DNA of 64,000 nt from Cerioporus squamosus (lineage: Eukaryota > Basidiomycota > Agaricomycetes > Polyporales > Polyporaceae): positions 310,001-374,000 of the forward strand of contig JABYQS010000014.1 of the NCBI GenBank assembly GCA_022592435.1, given 5' to 3'. Every line of letters begins with the position of its first letter. Within the stretch, counting starts at the first letter, position 1. The position numbers and the translations under genes are program-made. Shown in pieces: positions 13,237 through 23,718 of this stretch. A model generated the notes under the pieces. It saw only the letters and a list, made by a program, of their open reading frames with translations. It was not told the DNA's origin and ran no database searches.

Positions 13237-13338
13237 GCCACCGTGGCGCAATGGTAGCGCATCACCTTCCTATCGTCTAGGATTGAACACGATTGCGGGG
13301 CCAGGTGGGGGTTGCGGGTTCGATCCCCGTCGGTGGTA
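13237..13338 (+). tRNA. tRNA-Arg (anticodon CCT) with a 30-nt intron
   Basis: Cloverleaf: acceptor GCCACCG/CGGTGGT with discriminator A at 13338, D stem GCGC/GCGC, anticodon stem TCACC/GGTGG, and T arm GCGGG-TTCGATC-CCCGT. With the intron at 13273-13302 removed, the anticodon loop is TTCCTAA, giving anticodon CCT (13269-13271), which reads AGG. The intron starts after position 37 as in all nuclear tRNA introns. It contains TAGGA, complementary to the anticodon region, which is the standard anticodon-intron helix. Confidence 0.9.
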
Positions 13339-13380: not shown

Positions 13381-13389
13381 CGTAGCGAG
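13381..13389. repeat. 9-bp target-site duplication, left copy
   Basis: CGTAGCGAG lies directly outside the left end of the large DNA transposon and is identical to 23710-23718. It is 43 bp past the tRNA-Arg gene. Confidence 0.9.
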
Positions 13390-13525
13390 CAGGCTCCTGC
13401 CCACCCGCGCGCCTCGGGTTGAGGCCAGAATCTCAGCAGTGGGAGGCAGGCGAAATCCGAGAACCCAGCGCTTGCCTTATCCTCTGAGCGGGAGTCACGT
13501 GCTTTGTAGTTGTTGGGCCTCAACC
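13390..13525. repeat. Left long terminal inverted repeat of the large transposon
   Basis: It matches the reverse complement of 23573-23709 in blocks: 14 identical bases at the tip, then CCTCGGGTTGAGGC, AATCTC, AGCGCTT, GTCACGTG and GTTGTTGG-CCTCAACC, separated by diverged spacers. Confidence 0.85.
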
Positions 13526-15826
13526 TGGGGACCGGCAACGCCTGCGAGGCTGGCGGGCAGCTTAGTCACCAGGCGCCCATTTCCCAGATGGTCCTGACCA
13601 TGACGGCGTCTGTCTCGCGGTACGCGTCGCGCGCGCGCGCGCGAGGCTGGCCGCAGCGCTCTACCTCTGCTCATGTATTCTACTTACTACGATTCTACGA
13701 CCCTCGATGGGATAACAAACACTCGCATTATACACATCAAGTACTATCAACAAGCTAAGCTATGTGCAATGCACTGTAAGGCAAGATTAGGGAGGGATAC
13801 TAGGGAGTAAATGAGGGTTATGCTGCAAGTGCAGCTCTACTGCGTCCATCAAGGCCGCCAACTTCTCCTTGCGCAACCGGATGCGAGACTTCTTCGGTAT
13901 CTCACCCTTGTACTTCTGACGGTAGACTTCCAACTGTTCTTCCATAGCTGCAACCGTCATCCGCTTGATGGACTCCTTGTCAAAGACAAGCACCCGCCCC
14001 TGGAGCACTTCCAAATACTCGGCTGCTTTGCGCTCTTTCTCTGCAATCTCCTTCGCGTTCCGCTGAGCAGTGCTGACCATGTGCTCTGTGAGTTTCTTCC
14101 GCCGCTCCGATTCATGGTGCTGTGTCTCCATCTCCCGCGCGCTGCCACGCAGACTCCGCTGATCTTCTTCCGTGTTCAGGTGCTTCTCAATGAACTCTTC
14201 AGTCTCGTTTCGCTCCGCTTTCTTCTCGGCATTGAAGACGGCCTCGCTTCCATTCGGATTTTGGCGCGTCCAAATACGATCTGCCCCTAGGACACCCTCG
14301 TTGTGATCGTTGGTCGGCATGATCCAGGTGCTCTTGCGCTCCGCCACAGAGAGGTTATCGATGGCACCGCCCGCTGCAAACTCGACGGTAAACTTCTCCC
14401 ACGTACGGAGAGCCCCTGTCAAGAAGCGGACTAGAAGCGGCTTGAGATGAGGTAAGTTTGGGGCCATTTTCTGGATTGCGGCAACAGCTTCGGGGTGTTC
14501 CCATGGCTGCGCATCCAATGCTGGTGTCCGGGCATCTGCAGGGCCAGCATGAATGAGTACGTCGGGGTTCTCGATGAGGGCCTTGATGTACTCTTTCAGC
14601 TGATCGTGAAGAGGGCCGAGTTGAAGGCCATTCAGTTGTGGTTGACGCACAACCCGCATGTATGGGTGTGTGATAGCTTCCCCATAAAGGGCAAGGACCG
14701 CAAGCTCAGTGAGCGTTGCAGGGTCCCTGAGACCCTTGTACACGTTCTCTTCGATGTTCGTGAAGCCAGGTTTCGTCTTCTTGTCACGGACAAGCTCGAG
14801 GAAGCGGATATAGTGGGGAAGATGCGTGAGGAGCTCGGCGGCGGCAGCGCAGTGTGATTGATAGCGGGTGTTACTGGTGTCTGGGAAGCGCAGGGGATGA
14901 CCGGCAATCTGTTGGAAGTAGTACACATAGGTGTCATGATAACCCCGCTTGTCGTCGGTGTGGTTGAACAGTGCACCCGCGAGACTGGTCAGTTTGACGG
15001 CGCCGCGCATCGAGGACTCGAGAGCACGGAGTTCTGCAGGAGTGAGGTCCTCGGCAGTGACTGAGGATGGCCCTGCTTCGAGAAGATCTGGATCGACGTC
15101 GCGGAGAGTTGACGCGTTCTCCTTGTTGGCTAGAAGAATCGGGGGAGCTGCGCCTAGTTCTGACCATGCCGATCCCATTGCAGCAGCACCACCTTTGACG
15201 GCATTCAAGTCCTTGTGCATCGCGCAGCCCAGGCGCAAGAAGAGATCCAGGGGCCGCTTCTCCTGTTCTGGTAACGCATCGTAGACCGTCCGTCCGATCT
15301 CCAGGGTTTCAGCACGAAGCTTGTACGCAAATGTGCTAACCCGATCCTCAGAGGCGAGGCACTCCCAAGCTGTCAAGCCCCCGGCCGCCTCTATAACAGA
15401 GGCAGCCACCTTGGACGTCAAGCTTTGCAGGGTGTGTGATGGTTCGGGGCCAGAGGTGAGGTGGTTGCATGCGAGAGCCAGGTATGTCATTTCCCTCTTC
15501 CAATCCTGGAGTTTCCGTGTCGTCTTGAGCTGGTCTGCGGCGTGATCTCCGCCGACTCCACGTAGCTTCAAGGCGAACATCTCGAGATCGACCTGCTCGC
15601 CAATGCGTTGCGCAAACGGTGAGTTGTTGAACGCATAAGCAATGTGCTTAAACTTTGTTTGCCACCCTTCAACCTGCGTCTCACTTGTATGGTCCGTTGT
15701 GGCATGCACACCGAGGAGGCGGTTCTTTGCAATCAATGACTGGCCATCCTCGGAGGGCAGCACAATCAGGGCGTGCTGAGCTTCCTTGTTGACGCTTCTA
15801 TTGGTCGTTGTGTCGCCACTGATTGT

Positions 15827-15831
15827 GAAGC
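15827..15831. repeat. 5-bp target duplication of the Ty3 element, left copy
   Basis: GAAGC directly before the left LTR, identical to 21492-21496. Confidence 0.9.
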
Positions 15832-16070
15832 TGTAATCCCGATGCCTCCGGATTACGCACACACTTTGGCTCTGTTTACGTAGACGCGCATTCCCCTTTG
15901 CTTCCGCGAACCTTCGTTGTGTCCCTTACCGTTACCACCACCGGACGCAACGAAGGTATGTTCTCCCGCACATTAGCTACCTCTCATGTACTTACCGTTA
16001 CCACCACCGGACGCAACGAAGACCCGTTCCCGTTCTGTTCTTCGAGTGTTACCGGCAGAGCCGGTTTCCA
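15832..16070 (+). repeat. Left LTR
   Basis: 239 bp, TGTAATCC...GGTTTCCA. It contains two copies of a roughly 30-bp unit (core ACCGTTACCACCACCGGACG, around 15929 and 15991). It is followed by C and eight T, with no classical tRNA-primer binding site visible. Confidence 0.95.
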
Positions 16071-16530
16071 CTTTTTTTTGAACGACGAACATTCTTCACG
16101 GTCGCCACTCGAAGTTGGACTTCGACTAAGCGGGCCACAACGCGCCGTCCTCGACGAGGAGGCTCCCCACGTCATCACGTCGACAGACAACGCGAGGATC
16201 ACCCGGAGCTACACTAGGGAGCACTTCGTCAACCCCCTGACGACACCGCTGCCCTTCTCCAGTGTAGACAACGCGGAGATCTCGACACTTCTTCGTGCTG
16301 ACGAGCACGCAGACAGTGAGTCAGACTTCAGTTGGTTAGGCAATTCCCCGCTATCCTCGATCCCCTCTACACCGCTGTCATCGTCACGCCCGCATACGCC
16401 GACCGTCCCTCTTCCAATCCACGATACTTGTCCTCCCTCTCCCAGTCCTTCTTCCTCGTCTTCCTCATCGTCAGAGAACGCCGAGTTGCACGCATACAAC
16501 CACCCTTCGCCCGCATATAGTCAACCCACT

Positions 16531-19500
16531 ATGCCCCAGGACGCCCCTGTCACCATCCACTCAAAGGGTCCGCCCACTCTAGGTGAAGGGACGCTCACTC
16601 CCTCCGTCTTCAACGCGTGGGAGCACGGTTGCAAACAACACTTCCGGAAGCGTTCAATCAAGGACGAAGACAAGGTCATGGAGGCCTCCGATGGTTTCGT
16701 CAATGAACGAGTTCTCGACTGGTACCTCACAGAGAGCGCGCGTCTTGATGCGCTCTCGTGGGAGCAGTTCACCGCTGCTATCCGCGAGCGTTTCCTTCCT
16801 CGCGGCTGGGCTCTGTCTATCCGCTCGCAGATCTTCGCCCTTCAGCAGACTCCGGACCAAACCTTCGAGGACTTCGTTCTCGCGGTCGAGAAGCTCAACG
16901 CGCGTCTTCAAGGCAACAAGCACCGTCTCTCCGAGGACGCTCTTCGCGGCATCTTGAGCTCCAACATGGACGTGCATCTCGCGCTCGCCTGCGACACCGG
17001 AGCTATCGCGTCTATCAAGGACTACGCTGACTGGAAGGCTGCTGTCTGCACTGCCGACTCTCAGCGTATCCTCGTCCGGAAGACCGCCCGCGCTGCTAAC
17101 GCCACCGCATACAAGTCCACCGCGAACACCGCGTACAAGTCCTCTGCCGCTCCTGCTGCGTCGACCACCAAGTCCACTAAGCCTCGCATGCACCCGCCCA
17201 AGCTCAAGCCGGACGAACGCAAGCTCCTGGAAGACCACCAGGGCTGCTTCTCCTGCCGCCAGTTCTATGCCGACCATCTTGCTCGCGACTGTCCCAACCA
17301 ACCTTCTGAGCCCTCCACGTACAAACCTCTGACCGCCGCCATGGCCAGCGCTGCCAAGGCCAACAAGGAGAACCGCCAGAAAGGGAAGTCTGTAGCCGCC
17401 GTCGTTGACCCGGACCTCGACGTGGACGTCGACGCCATCGCCGCTGTTGCGTCCTCCCCAATCGCGAGCACCACTGGCATTTTGGGCACAGGCTCGGATT
17501 CTGACGAGTGCGTCACTCCCCTCTATGCTCCCCACACCATTCTTACCGCAAACCTCCTCTCCCCCATCACCGACGCTCTTCTCTGTCGAACTCTTGTGGA
17601 CTCCGGTTCGCATGCAGTTCTGATTAGGGAGGACGTTGCAGACCGCCTCAAGCTCCCGCTGCGCGATCTCCCCGAGCCATTTCGGCTGGGAAACGCGTGG
17701 GGAACTGGCGTGGAGGAAAGTAAGAAGTGGGTTAAGCTTAGAATCGCACTACCGGATTTCTCTTGGACCTCTGTAACCTGTCGCGCCATTGTCGTCCCGC
17801 ATCTCTGCGCCCCTGTACTATTAGGCAAGCCATTTCTGGAATCAAATCACCTTGTCGAAGACCACGCTGCCCGAACGCTCGTCCACAAGTCTTCCAATCG
17901 CGACATTCTCACCCCCCTCGCAACCGTCCCTGCGCTGCGCCCCATTCTTGAACAAAGGCAGGCAAATCGGGAGGAGAGAATCGCCGCCGACGACGCCTCC
18001 CGTCTCCGACACCTTCGATTCCTGAAAGAGATGCACGACACAACGCGACTGTGTCGCATCGAACTCGACACGCACACGGTCGATGGCTCGTCAGTGGCCG
18101 CCGCCGCCGTCCGTGATCGAGTCGAGGTTCTTGCGCTACTGGAGCGGCTCCAGCGCGAGAACGTTTCGATGAAGCAGGAGTTTATCGACCGCTTCCCCGA
18201 TGACATACCTCATATCGATGATCTACCTACAGATTGCTACCATCGATTCGTACTCAAGGATGCGAACATGGTGATCGCTCGACGGCAGTACGACTGTCCG
18301 AAGAAGTATCGGGAAGCGTGGAAGATCCTGCTCGACCAGCACCTCGCCGCGGGGCGGCTCCGCAAATCCGACAGCCCGTACGCCTCACCCTCGTTCCTAG
18401 TCCCCAAATCCGACCCTACCGCCCTCCCGCGCTGGGTCAACGACTATCGGGTCCTCAACGAGAATACGGTGCCGGATATGCATCCGCTTCCCAAAATCAG
18501 CGATATTCTTGCGGATTGTGGCAAAGGCAAGATCTGGGCTAAGATCGACATGACGAACTCTTTCTTTCAGACCCGAGTCCATCCAGACGACATCAAATAC
18601 ACGGCAGTCACCACCCCCTTCGGCCTCTATGAATGGACGGTCATGCCCCAAGGTTGTCGCAACGCTCCCTCTACCCACCAGCGACGCATGTTCGACGCCT
18701 TGCGTCCCTTCATAGGTTCGATCTGCCACGTCTACTTGGACGACATAATCATCTGGTCCCAAACGATCGAGGAGCACCGTCGCAACGTCCGCCTTGTCCT
18801 CCAAGCCCTCCGGAAGCACCACCTGTACTGTTCTGACAAGAAGACGCAACTCTTCTGTGTCGAACTGGACTTCCTCGGACATCGCATCTCGACCGACGGG
18901 GTGCAGCCTGACCCCAAGAAGGTCGAGAAGATCCTAGCCTGGCCTGTTCCGCGGTCCGTCGCGGACGTCTGCGCGTTCCTGGGCCTTGTGCGGTACGTCG
19001 CGAATTTCCTTCCGCGACTTGCAGAGCACACTGCTGTTCTGACTCCTTTGACGACGAAGGAGGCGGAACGCGAGTTCCCGGACTGGTCATCCTCACACCA
19101 GGCCGCCTTCGTCGCCATTAAGGAGTTAGTCACCAGCAGCGAGTGCCTCACGGTCATTGACCACGAGGACCTCGAGCGCAACAAGATCTTCGTGTCATGC
19201 GACGCGAGTGATCTGCCCACTGGGGCGATGCTGTCTTTTGGCCCTACCCTTGAGACAGCTCGGCCTGTGGCGTTCAACTCCATGCAGCTCAAGGGCGCAG
19301 AGTTGAACTACCCTGTGCACGAGAAGGAGCTTCTAGCGATCGTGCGCGCACTGAAGAAGTGGCGCTGCGATCTGCTCGGGGTCCCTTTCACCGTGTATAC
19401 AGACCACAGGACCCTGGAGAACTTCCACCGCCAGAAGGATTTGTCGCGGCGACAATCCCGATGGCACGAGTTCTTGTCGCAGTACGACTTCGTCATTAAG

Positions 19501-21186
19501 TACATCAAGGGCGAACACAATGTCGTCGCCGATGCTCTGTCGCGCGCGCTGTTGCCCTCGGACGACGTCATCGATCCATCCACTTGTGCTGCTGTTGCGA
19601 ATCTCCGCGAAGCCACCCGCACCCTGCGCGACATGCCCCAGCCGATGCCTCCTGCGCCTGTCTGTGCTACCTCGCGTCTGAAAGTCTCTGCCGACCCTAA
19701 CTGGCTGCAATCGATCCGCGATGGCTACGACAAGGACAAGTTCTGTCTCAAACTTCGTGAGCAGACCGGCACTCTGGGCATCCGTGAGTCTAATGGCCTG
19801 CTCTATGTCTGTGATCGCCTCGTCATCCCTCGCGTCGCCGATCTCCGCGAAGGTCTCTTCCGCTGCGCGCACGACAATCTTGGACACTTCGGCTTCGACA
19901 AGTCCTATGCCATCCTTCGAGACGTCTATTACTGGCCCAACATGCGCAAAGAGCTCGAGACGATGTATATCCCTAGCTGCGACGACTGCCAAAGGAACAA
20001 AGCGACCACACGCAAACCTCCTGGGCCTCTGCACCCCCTGCCTATTCCCTCCGCCCGCGGTGACTGCGTCTCCATCAACTTCATCGGTGCCCTGCCCGAC
20101 GACGACGGCTTCAACTGCATCGTCACCATCACCGACCGCATGGGCGCCGACGTCCGCATGCTTCCTTGTCGCACAGATATGACAGCAGAAGAGTTCGCCG
20201 TGCTCTTCTTCAACCACTGGTACTGCGAGAACGGCCTACCCTTGGAGATCGTGTCCGACAGGGACAAGCTCTTTGTCTCCAACTTCTGGAAAGCTCTGCA
20301 CAAGCTCACTGGGATCAAAGCGAAGCTCTCAACATCCTTTCATCCGGAGACGGACGGCGCCTCGGAACGCACTAACAAGACCGTCATTCAGGCGCTTCGT
20401 TACCATGTCGCTCGCAACCAGCGCGGCTGGGCACGCGCTCTACCTCGTGTCCGCTTTGCGATTATGAACACGGTAAACACTTCCACTGGTTTCTCCCCCT
20501 TCCAGCTCCACCTGGGACGCTCGCCCCGCGTCTTGCCCCCACTCTTTGACGACGACGTCACGCGAACCACCGCCACCTTCCCCATGGACACCGACTCCGC
20601 CGCGAAACTTCTCCGACAAATCGATACCGACGTCCTCGAAGCTCAAGACAACCTCTTCCATGCTAAACTCGCACAAGCACAGGCCGCCAACCGCCACCGT
20701 GGCCCGGAGCATACGTTCTCGGAAGGCGACCTTGTCATGCTTTCCACATTCCACCGGCGCCGTGAATACATGCAGCACGGTAGTAACCGCGTCGCTAAGT
20801 TCATGGTACGTTTTGATGGACCTTATAAGATTCTTCGCGCGCACCCCGAGACTTCTGTTTACACATTAGATCTTCCCCCTTCTATGAAAATCTTTCCGAC
20901 ATTCCATTCTTCCCTTCTTAAGCCTTATATCCCAAACAACGATAACCTTTTCCCCTCCCGTTCGAAACCCCGTCCCGGTCCCATTGTCACGCCTGACGGC
21001 GTCGAGGAGTATGAAGTCGAACACATTCTGGACCACAGGCGTAGGGGCCGAGGTTACCAGTTCCTCGTGCGTTGGCGTGGTTGGGGTCTGGACGCGGACC
21101 GCTGGCTGGCTGGCGCCGAGTGCAAAGACTTGGAAGCTCTCGATGTCTACATGGCTGATAACGACCTTGACCTCTTCCCAACATGA
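16531..21186 (+). CDS. Ty3 gag-pol polyprotein
   Basis: The start chosen is the first ATG after the LTR (16531, 1551 aa), although the frame is open upstream into the LTR to 15898. With this start: gag with a zinc knuckle CFSCRQFYADHLARDC near residues 239-254 (CX2CX6HX4C, longer than the usual X4); protease with LVDSGSH near 356; reverse transcriptase with YLDD at about 735; RNase H with SCDAS near 890; integrase zinc-binding segment near 1113-1160; integrase core with Asn at 1183, Asp at 1243 and Glu at 1279 (35 residues between the last two); and a C-terminal chromodomain at about 1490-1540. The family normally has Asp where residue 1183 is Asn, so integrase of this copy is probably inactive. 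Gag and pol are one frame with no shift. Confidence 0.95.
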   Translation: MPQDAPVTIHSKGPPTLGEGTLTPSVFNAWEHGCKQHFRKRSIKDEDKVMEASDGFVNERVLDWYLTESARLDALSWEQFTAAIRERFLPRGWALSIRSQIFALQQTPDQTFEDFVLAVEKLNARLQGNKHRLSEDALRGILSSNMDVHLALACDTGAIASIKDYADWKAAVCTADSQRILVRKTARAANATAYKSTANTAYKSSAAPAASTTKSTKPRMHPPKLKPDERKLLEDHQGCFSCRQFYADHLARDCPNQPSEPSTYKPLTAAMASAAKANKENRQKGKSVAAVVDPDLDVDVDAIAAVASSPIASTTGILGTGSDSDECVTPLYAPHTILTANLLSPITDALLCRTLVDSGSHAVLIREDVADRLKLPLRDLPEPFRLGNAWGTGVEESKKWVKLRIALPDFSWTSVTCRAIVVPHLCAPVLLGKPFLESNHLVEDHAARTLVHKSSNRDILTPLATVPALRPILEQRQANREERIAADDASRLRHLRFLKEMHDTTRLCRIELDTHTVDGSSVAAAAVRDRVEVLALLERLQRENVSMKQEFIDRFPDDIPHIDDLPTDCYHRFVLKDANMVIARRQYDCPKKYREAWKILLDQHLAAGRLRKSDSPYASPSFLVPKSDPTALPRWVNDYRVLNENTVPDMHPLPKISDILADCGKGKIWAKIDMTNSFFQTRVHPDDIKYTAVTTPFGLYEWTVMPQGCRNAPSTHQRRMFDALRPFIGSICHVYLDDIIIWSQTIEEHRRNVRLVLQALRKHHLYCSDKKTQLFCVELDFLGHRISTDGVQPDPKKVEKILAWPVPRSVADVCAFLGLVRYVANFLPRLAEHTAVLTPLTTKEAEREFPDWSSSHQAAFVAIKELVTSSECLTVIDHEDLERNKIFVSCDASDLPTGAMLSFGPTLETARPVAFNSMQLKGAELNYPVHEKELLAIVRALKKWRCDLLGVPFTVYTDHRTLENFHRQKDLSRRQSRWHEFLSQYDFVIKYIKGEHNVVADALSRALLPSDDVIDPSTCAAVANLREATRTLRDMPQPMPPAPVCATSRLKVSADPNWLQSIRDGYDKDKFCLKLREQTGTLGIRESNGLLYVCDRLVIPRVADLREGLFRCAHDNLGHFGFDKSYAILRDVYYWPNMRKELETMYIPSCDDCQRNKATTRKPPGPLHPLPIPSARGDCVSINFIGALPDDDGFNCIVTITDRMGADVRMLPCRTDMTAEEFAVLFFNHWYCENGLPLEIVSDRDKLFVSNFWKALHKLTGIKAKLSTSFHPETDGASERTNKTVIQALRYHVARNQRGWARALPRVRFAIMNTVNTSTGFSPFQLHLGRSPRVLPPLFDDDVTRTTATFPMDTDSAAKLLRQIDTDVLEAQDNLFHAKLAQAQAANRHRGPEHTFSEGDLVMLSTFHRRREYMQHGSNRVAKFMVRFDGPYKILRAHPETSVYTLDLPPSMKIFPTFHSSLLKPYIPNNDNLFPSRSKPRPGPIVTPDGVEEYEVEHILDHRRRGRGYQFLVRWRGWGLDADRWLAGAECKDLEALDVYMADNDLDLFPT

Positions 21187-21252
21187 TCTACCCTACGATA
21201 CGTTCTCCCCTTCTTTCGGCACCCCGTATTTTTGATTCAGAACTGGCGAGAG

Positions 21253-21491
21253 TGTAATCCCGATGCCTCCGGATTATGCACACACTTTGGCTCTGTTTAC
21301 GTAGACGCGCATTCCCCTTTGCTTCCGCGAACCTTCGTTGTGTCCCTTACCGTTACCACCACCGGACGCAACAAAGGTATGTTCTCCCGCACATTAGCTA
21401 CCTCTCATGTACTTACCGTTACCACCACCGGACGCAACGAAGACCCGTTCCCGTTCTGTTCTTCGAGTGTTACCGGCAGAGCCGGTTTCCA
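21253..21491 (+). repeat. Right LTR
   Basis: 239 bp, 237 identical to the left LTR. It is preceded by a short purine-rich stretch GGCGAGAG that may act as the polypurine tract. Confidence 0.95.
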
Positions 21492-21496
21492 GAAGC
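21492..21496. repeat. 5-bp target duplication of the Ty3 element, right copy
   Basis: GAAGC directly after the right LTR. Confidence 0.9.
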
Positions 21497-22524
21497 CTAG
21501 TATTCAATGATGAGCACTGTGCGTACAGTTGCAATGCGCCATTTGACACTTACATTTTGCCCGTAGAATCTCATACGCCGTTTGAATATCACTTGCTGCA
21601 CCAAGCTCCAACATCGCCCTCCGCACGGTGCGTGCACTCATCTTCCCTTCGACCGATACCCCGAGCACACGGCCCATCAGCTGCAGAACCTTCCCGACCC
21701 GGTCCTGTGCGCAGCCAAACCGCACGAGTGTACGCGCGAGCATCCGCACTTGGGCAGTATACACCCCCTTGTCCCGCAGGCGCAGGGTGAGCGGCCGGGA
21801 CCGCTCCTTCTTGAGCTTCCTCTCCACCATCATCGGAATACGCGCAAGCTGCTTCTTCAACATCCGCACCTCCCGGCGTACGCCTGCTAGCGCAACTCGC
21901 AACCTTCCATTCTCACCGTCCATCCAGTTGAGGACAAGCTCGACCTCCGATCGTATGTGCTTCTCCCGCTCCGCCGCAAGTCTCCGTTGTTCGGACTCGG
22001 CCTGGGCTAGAGCGTGCTTGTGGCCATTCTTGAAGTTCCGGAACCTCTCTCCCAGGATGGTCAAGGCTCGCCGCGCCCGAAGAAGTTGGCGACGTTCATT
22101 GTGATGCTGTGACTGGTAGGCAGTGATACGACGATGTAAGAACGCGTTCTCCTGCTCCTTTGTCTGAAGCTGACGCAGTAGCACTGCTTTAGACAGGTGT
22201 GTCCTCGCATTAACTTCATTCAGAGAAGCCGGAACGTCGCACAGTACTCCGCAGGACTGCGGTGAGCGCAAAGTCTATTGAGAAGTTCCATGACATCAGA
22301 ACATGAGAAGTTCAGGGCATATGAACTGCGAGACCCACGGTACACTGCTTCCCTGCCTGCTGAGCACCCGAACTGACATTCTCCTTGTTCTTCTGTGATT
22401 GTGCGTGCCGGGATGTCGGTCGGGAGGCTCTTGCCTTGGCCAAGGCCTCGAGCTGTGCAGAGCTCTTCTTCTTAGGAGAGTAGCGTGTTTGTTGATGGTT
22501 CCCCATTAATTGAAGGTATGCCAA

Positions 22525-23572
22525 GCCATTATAAAGCTCCAGTATGCTTGTAATGCTCTAGTAGACCGTATGCCAGAAAGTGGGAGAGGTGCCACGGTCC
22601 TGCCGCTGTGGGAGCCTCAAGTTTCTGCAAGTCACTACATATGGTGCTAGTCAGTCAGTACTGTTATTTGCACTGCTTCTGTTCCTGACACTTGCCTTCT
22701 TAACAGACATGCATTCTCCCAGACAGTAGGCTCAGAAGGGACTGCAAGCAGGCACTTCGCAACGGCGGAGGTGTCCCCAAATCGGAGCGCAACAGGGTCA
22801 CATGACCAGGGCCTCCGCGTCGGTGGCGTTGGCGCTTAGAGCGCGACGCGTCGGCCGCGAGCTCTGACTCTGCGCGAAGTTTTCCTCTCTGTCAGGGCGG
22901 ACGCGTCTCTCAAAACAATGTGCAATTTAATTGGGCTGAAACTGTCTGTCATTTGGACAATGGACTTACTCGTAGCCCTACTATAAGGATGAGAACAGCA
23001 AGTAACTGCTGGGAGCTTCAATGTACCCATGAATGTGGAGGTCTCAATTCTGCATTCCATGCCAATTCCTCTGTACAAATAAGGGAGTCCTGCAGCCGTA
23101 TATCATTGCAGCCATCCGCTACGCTGTAAGGGCCTAACATCCTTGCCAATCTGTCTCGCATTCTCGCGACCGACTCTAGCCAGCGTCTACACTGTATTGC
23201 AAACAAGAACAAACAAAGTGGGCTTCGCAGGAATTGCCGGTCCCCACTCAACCCTCAGGCCTCAGCGACGGCTGGCACCAAACACGAGTAGATGCCGGTA
23301 TCAGCTGATGGGCGCCCAGGTTTCCCTCCATTTGGTAGTGGTCCCGGGAGACGCAGACACTTCCCCTTGGATGTATCCCATCCATTTTGCTGTTGTGGGG
23401 GCTTTCTGTGCTGCTGGCTAGGCAGTCGGAAGGTTTTCGGGGGCCATGGATGAGAGCGGAGCGATCCTCTGCCAAATTCCGTTAACGGGAGGATGCCCTA
23501 TATGGGGTCCTCCCGAGCAGCTATCAGCCGCTCCCCGTTATTTACTCGTGTTTGGTGCCAGCCCTCTCTGAG
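22525..23572. other. Non-coding right arm of the large transposon with an internal inverted duplication
   Basis: No coding frame is recognised. Two arms, 23247-23290 and 23541-23580, are inverted copies of each other with a core of about 20 identical bases. Sequence after the inner arm (GGGCGCCCAGG...TGGTCC, about 23309-23345) resembles the inner part of the left end (about 13570-13600) in the same orientation. The right arm therefore looks like a partial copy of the left subterminal region. It also contains the promoter side of the transposase gene. Confidence 0.55.
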
Positions 23573-23709
23573 GGTTGAGGCCAACAACACTTTTACACGT
23601 GACCCAGCGCTACGAGAGGTGTAAGCGCTCCCCCCGCTGCAGGGAATCCACCTTGCCCCCGCCTCAGAGATTCAGCCTCAACCCGAGGAGAGGGATGGGC
23701 AGGAGCCTG
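23573..23709. repeat. Right long terminal inverted repeat of the large transposon
   Basis: Counterpart of 13390-13525 with the same order of conserved blocks. The tip ends GGGCAGGAGCCTG at 23709. Confidence 0.85.
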
Positions 23710-23718
23710 CGTAGCGAG
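23710..23718. repeat. 9-bp target-site duplication, right copy
   Basis: CGTAGCGAG, identical to 13381-13389. Confidence 0.9.

Follow-up and report, generated by a model that had tools for sequence, protein, structure and literature searches.

A 64,000-nucleotide stretch of the Cerioporus squamosus genome (GCA_022592435.1, contig JABYQS010000014.1, positions 310,001 to 374,000, hereafter the window) carries on its minus strand a gene whose relatives stand in databases as hypothetical proteins. Very probably this is a broken copy of a predicted transposase gene lying within a mobile element (13526–23246), which jumped into an older element having 9-bp duplications; the encoded protein likely moves elements of its kind by hAT-like cut-and-paste. 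The DNA itself shows the ends of the element and its 7-bp duplications, the nesting, nearly identical copies standing at separate sites, and sites without an insertion, while the unnamed mushroom protein family is, by prediction, one of DDE transposases that go with a terminal inverted repeat (TIR) transposon. The genome searched comprises 54 Mb in 988 contigs, the window lying within contig C46.

The transposase-encoding element occupies 9721 bp on the minus strand (13526–23246), or about 4056 bp when a nested Ty3 retrotransposon and one GAAGC are subtracted, and not the ~4.7 kb without Ty3 given by the original prediction for this stretch. Its inverted ends, TGGGGACCGGCAA, are 25 bp long and identical at 22 of 25 positions, with the left TIR (TGGGGACCGGCAACGCCTGCGAGGC) at 13526–13550 on the plus strand, the right TIR at 23222–23246 on the minus strand, and tips reading TGGGGAC...GTCCCCA. 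Directly outside lie the two copies of a 7-bp target-site duplication, CTCAACC (13519–13525 and 23247–23253). The original prediction had instead framed the gene with inverted ends of about 136 bp, starting at 13390 and 23709, and a perfect 9-bp duplication. Both are real: the ends align with a local score of 64, whereas 200 shuffles reached at most 28, and CGTAGCGAG occurs twice in the window, at 13381–13389 and 23710–23718, adjoining those outer ends. The minus-strand gene and the nested Ty3 had also been correctly recognized. What does not hold is the assignment of these ends and this duplication to the gene, since contig C627 has both without the gene, which owns the inner pair and CTCAACC.

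The C627 copy, an outer element of 585 bp, occupies the same site as that in the window, has an identical 9-bp duplication and is, flanks included, 98 to 99% identical to it (98.8% over 648 bases for the window from 23253 on). It is uninterrupted across the insertion point of the inner element (GGGCCTCAACCCTCAGCGACGG), and its arms pair beyond that point, over ~185 bp, versus 136 bp in the window. The inner insertion thus split the outer inverted repeat, which is why the repeat had appeared to stop at 136 bp. In the window, the left arm (13390–13525, plus strand, tip CAGGCTCCTGCCCA) matches 23573–23709 in inverted orientation, and the right part (23254–23709, plus strand) comprises the remainder of the left inverted repeat (from 23254), the middle and the right arm. 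Because C627 represents the same site without the gene, the 9-bp duplications belong to a non-autonomous element; judged by this nesting, the outer element is the older one, and the transposase-encoding element jumped into it.

A single gene-carrying transposon with ends of 136 bp and a duplication of 9 bp, of which C627 would be an internal-deletion derivative, is extremely improbable. Deletion derivatives are common among TIR elements, and the outer ends and their duplication do flank the gene, but the C627 junction coincides with a second inverted pair plus a 7-bp repeat, and in C627 the outer inverted repeat runs straight through the junction point. The other gene loci also argue against a single element: within about 1.5 kb on each side of loci L010–L022, no CAGGCTCC tip with up to 2 mismatches is present apart from one 2-mismatch match in L020; none of the 8 loci besides the window has CAGGCTCC ends with 9-bp duplications in the stretches read; and the inner tips bracket five. 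The other contigs with outer ends (C627, C174, C36, C339, C891, C201, C19 and C137) give no match to the transposase gene.

The gene itself consists of an upstream coding exon (21554–22274, minus strand, an open frame whose upper limit is the frame end and not a mapped exon start), encoding a coiled coil and a helix-turn-helix-like part, and a last exon (13787–15831, minus strand, open frame) encoding the catalytic domain. A predicted intron, GTAAGT...TAG (21497–21553, minus strand), was read from the sequence, with the reading continuing as in the relative P0003. Just past this intron, at the start of the last exon, Ty3 interrupts the gene; the window copy is broken, split by the retrotransposon. 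The upstream exon, aligned by eye to its relatives, has 7 further matches in the genome, and a search with the last-exon protein gave at least 14 rows at at least 9 loci. Among proteins, C8T65DRAFT_569375 (partial), from the same species, matches the last exon best, at 98% identity, and the family numbers 444 matches at an expectation value (E) of 0.001 among 7995 scored candidates. One Rhizoctonia solani member, P0127, carries the database name Myosin-10, which may reflect its coiled coil.

The motifs SGD, GGD, C-x2-H and NDHNEG, put forward as the DDE core by the original prediction, are conserved throughout the family. The D, D, C, H and E residues stand at positions 7, 96, 203, 206 and 512 of the last-exon protein (minus-strand codons 15812–15814, 15545–15547, 15224–15226, 15215–15217 and 14297–14299); in P0003 numbering, D, D and E are D262, D351 and E771. 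Across a 97-row alignment, the first D is found in all 93 rows with a residue there, the second in 96 of 97, and C, H and E in 97 of 97; 101 to 123 residues separate the second D from C, and 264 to 314 separate H from E (93 of the 97 rows having all five residues). Structure prediction returned the anticipated RNase H fold, with D, D, E and C-x2-H in the core and a Hermes-type helical insertion domain before E, so that the view of the family as transposases of a TIR transposon is borne out at the level of prediction. Profile searches recognized little of this: the window pieces had only sub-threshold Pfam matches (Alpha_kinase, E 0.069; Csm1_N, E 0.062; CENP-F leucine zipper, E 0.27), five proteins gave no NCBIfam match, and at E 0.1 no transposase Pfam domain was matched by any of 40 family members. 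A profile of the 97 rows run against solved chains retrieved no hAT chain but two unrelated ones (best E 1.1). P, Kolobok and other DDE chains were not among the fold-search matches listed, except ISCth4 (E 6.6e-3), a result that excludes no family.

The inner tip pattern, allowing up to 2 mismatches, is found at 35 places in the genome (14 exact) versus 8 for a reversed control. Both inner ends bracket the gene at six loci (window, C166, C805, C446, C490 and C641), while single inner ends were seen at C113 and at C530, whose contig begins 1.4 kb before the match. A 7-bp duplication accompanies five of the six gene-bearing elements: CTCAACC in the window, AGTACAG at C805, CTGTGTG at C490, CTCAGAG at C641 (right tip one base short) and TTGTCAA at C446 (left tip one base short). 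Four short two-tipped copies were also read (C754, C209 and two on C428), with an exact TAAAGAA duplication at C754. Counting every copy whose two ends were read, 6 of 10 are flanked by an exact 7-bp duplication. Scanning duplication lengths of 7 to 10 gave a 7-mer with a 20/20 inverted end for C805 and only weak pairs (12/20) for C166.

Over their full length the elements at C641 (3697 bp) and C490 (3709 bp) share 99.5% identity, yet they occupy different sites with different 7-mers. An unoccupied counterpart of the C490 site is found on C558 (100% over 304 bases), and C641 landed in a dispersed repeat, other copies of which (e.g., C268 and C57) span the junction uninterrupted (100% over 210 bases). 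The 73 bases around each junction correspond, letter for letter, to the joined flanks plus one 7-mer. This near-identity, together with the unoccupied sites, indicates recent movement. The search for such sites covered C490, C641 and C805. The family's elements thus combine TIRs, a constant duplication length, dispersed copies and unoccupied sites, as expected of a cut-and-paste TIR transposon, with exceptions at C166, C209 and C428. Beside the window insertion, CCTCAGG|CCTCAGC (23253–23266) forms a 7-bp duplication in which the final base is complemented, and the extra 7 bp are missing from both C627 arms and from the C36 copy; this is possibly an old excision footprint of an element with 7-bp duplications.

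Several observations qualify the interpretation given here. No inner ends were found at gene locus C328, and no unoccupied site for C805 was found in the genome. The C166 element has ATTACAG on both sides, yet with 5 extra bases at the right; the short C209 copy has no matching duplication pair; and CTGTTTG and GTGGAAG are placed crosswise at the two C428 copies, as if recombination had swapped their ends. The putative footprint is a single case and may have arisen by slippage between CTCAG repeats.

Two further observations concern these copies. C166:1553-5478 and C428:5147-7547 each apparently hold the other's unoccupied site (30-base flanks), which suggests that C166 and C428 are alleles. 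Two elements with different tip variants, one with its right end on C530 (L010) and the other at C756:112144 (L087), terminate one base apart against a shared flank, CAGTTCGCCGCGGAGACGTT.

With regard to classification, the family resembles the hAT superfamily (Hermes, Ac/Ds, Kat1; hAT7) in its predicted RNase H core with D/D/E, a C-x2-H after the second D, a long helical insertion that separates this motif from E, and short TIRs. The hAT target-site duplication is 8 bp, with 5, 6 or 7 bp in named subgroups. According to PMC12730594, a survey of fungal elements from 2025, 7-bp duplications characterize hAT7, from rust fungi, and Kyakuja; hAT7 is the sole hAT subgroup fitting on this point. That the protein is an ordinary, highly diverged hAT member, hAT7 for example, and not a separate lineage is a reading of appreciable but lesser probability, and it concerns filing, not mechanism. 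It draws on the Hermes-like predicted fold, the C-x2-H, the shared duplication length and a comparable insertion, since the H-to-E spacing of 264 to 314 residues compares with 304 in Hermes (H268, PMC4763223; E572, PMC2533014). The same sources place D248 of Hermes 17 residues before the C that lies three before H268, whereas the family has 101 to 123 residues there, about 105 separating the second D from C-x2-H. The hAT C-terminal dimerization domain (PF05699) is likewise missing by hidden Markov model from all 40 members at E 0.1, whereas elsewhere in this genome the domain is matched 28 times, never at family loci. The head is a coiled coil plus a helix-turn-helix-like part: no BED-like finger (C-x2-C...H...H/C) was found in any of the 97 rows, many of which lack the N-terminus, nor a BED Pfam match in the 40 members. 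As hAT7 fits the duplication length but not the hAT domain test, the elements point to a hAT-like lineage that fails such a test. We consider it an even call whether this lineage is a separate superfamily of eukaryotic cut-and-paste transposons sister to hAT. Such a superfamily would be marked by TGGGGAC tips and duplications of 7 bp, by a DNA-binding head that is a coiled coil and not a BED finger, and by an enlarged loop from the second D to C-x2-H; it would account for a large share of unnamed mushroom proteins and be recently mobile in C. squamosus.

Membership in the Kyakuja/Dileera/Zisupton (KDZ) group is very unlikely. The Agaricomycete setting and 7-bp duplications do recall Kyakuja, which the survey reports from Agaricomycotina, but the same survey gives Kyakuja CA..TG termini without TIRs (PMC12730594), whereas the family's elements have TIRs of 24 to 25 bp and TG..CA tips. 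The KDZ domain (PF18758) is absent from 40 of 40 members at E 0.1, and its 92 matches in the genome include none at family loci. A resemblance to Mutator-like elements (MULEs) in duplication length, though not in protein, had been remarked upon in the original prediction; the part about the protein stands, with no MULE Pfam match in the window pieces or the 40 members, but the gene's own element has 7-bp duplications, not 9-bp ones, and 25-bp TIRs; only the outer element, with its long TIRs and 9-bp duplication, resembles MULEs. Dada transposases share a DDE core with C/DxxH and have 6- to 7-bp duplications, yet they lack TIRs and target small RNA genes (PMC3706591), whereas the family's elements have TIRs and no shared target was noticed among them. 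Neither the TGGGGAC tips nor the family are described in the titles and abstract openings listed by open-access literature searches, which did not extend to Repbase.

A mechanism can be proposed from characterized hAT relatives. Kat1 nicks DNA and closes a hairpin, for which its C-x2-H pair is needed, and H268 of that motif lies within the Hermes active site (PMC4763223). The family's enzyme would nick each element end, close the flanking DNA into hairpins, release the element and integrate it into a target site with a stagger of 7 bp. Opening of the hairpins by the host would then leave footprints such as CCTCAGG|CCTCAGC; those of Ac/Ds are centered on the complement of the base adjoining the element, according to PMC5873905. 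The short copies of 715 to 1018 bp, having the same tips, were likely moved by intact relatives.

A family of hypothetical proteins hereby receives a likely job, the movement of DNA, and gene counts in Agaricomycetes would become cleaner if its members are transposases. Annotators would gain a searchable tip, TGGGGACSGGCAAY, together with the 7-bp duplication rule. A hAT-like enzyme that apparently lacks the head and tail customary in hAT transposases would also permit comparison of how such enzymes grip their ends.

The nested Ty3 retrotransposon (15832–21491, plus strand) has long terminal repeats at 15832–16070 and 21253–21491 that are identical at 237 of 239 positions, and is flanked by its own 5-bp duplication, GAAGC (15827–15831 and 21492–21496).

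The outer ends do recur with different 9-bp duplications and empty sites, which the original prediction had named as proof of mobility, but in copies without the gene. The outer tip occurs exactly at 18 places in the genome, 13 of them with similar sequence behind it, as on C627, C339, C36, C174/C19, C137 and C201/C891; matches on C1, C91, C167, C282 and C634 were dropped because they lack such similarity. By itself, the 13-base tip is no evidence, since with 1 mismatch it is rarer (163 places) than its reversed control (260). Four independent sites show the two outer ends together with an exact 9-bp duplication, namely CGTAGCGAG (window and C627), GCAAGGATG (C339), GGCCTCAAG (C36) and GGGGGTGAT (divided between C174, with the left end, and C19, with the right). 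Three of the four have an unoccupied counterpart with a single 9-mer, on C701 (97% over the joined query), C211 (94%) and C203 (98%).

By raw count, at three of six independent sites the outer element lies less than 100 bp from a tRNA gene: an intron-containing tRNA-Arg in the window (13237–13338, the element beginning at 13390), tRNA-Val on C174 (L065; 3469–3542 and 3626) and tRNA-Leu on C137 (L068; 2774 and 2863–2945). The stretches read at C36, C339 and C201/C891 contain none. The outer element may aim at the flanks of tRNA genes.

On C36 (10558–19425; L063/L064), the outer element is apparently split by another element, with tips CCAGTGAGAACCGGGG, which encodes a tnp2-type protein (PF02992, E 3e-9). 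The direct repeat at this insertion measures 7 to 11 bp, depending on tip placement, which is long for a tnp2 element. The tnp2-type protein was considered as the motor of the outer element and rejected, as it seems to lie inside a further nested element with tips CCAGTGAGAACC. Both this insertion on C36 and the one in the window hit the same GGCCTCAACC spot.

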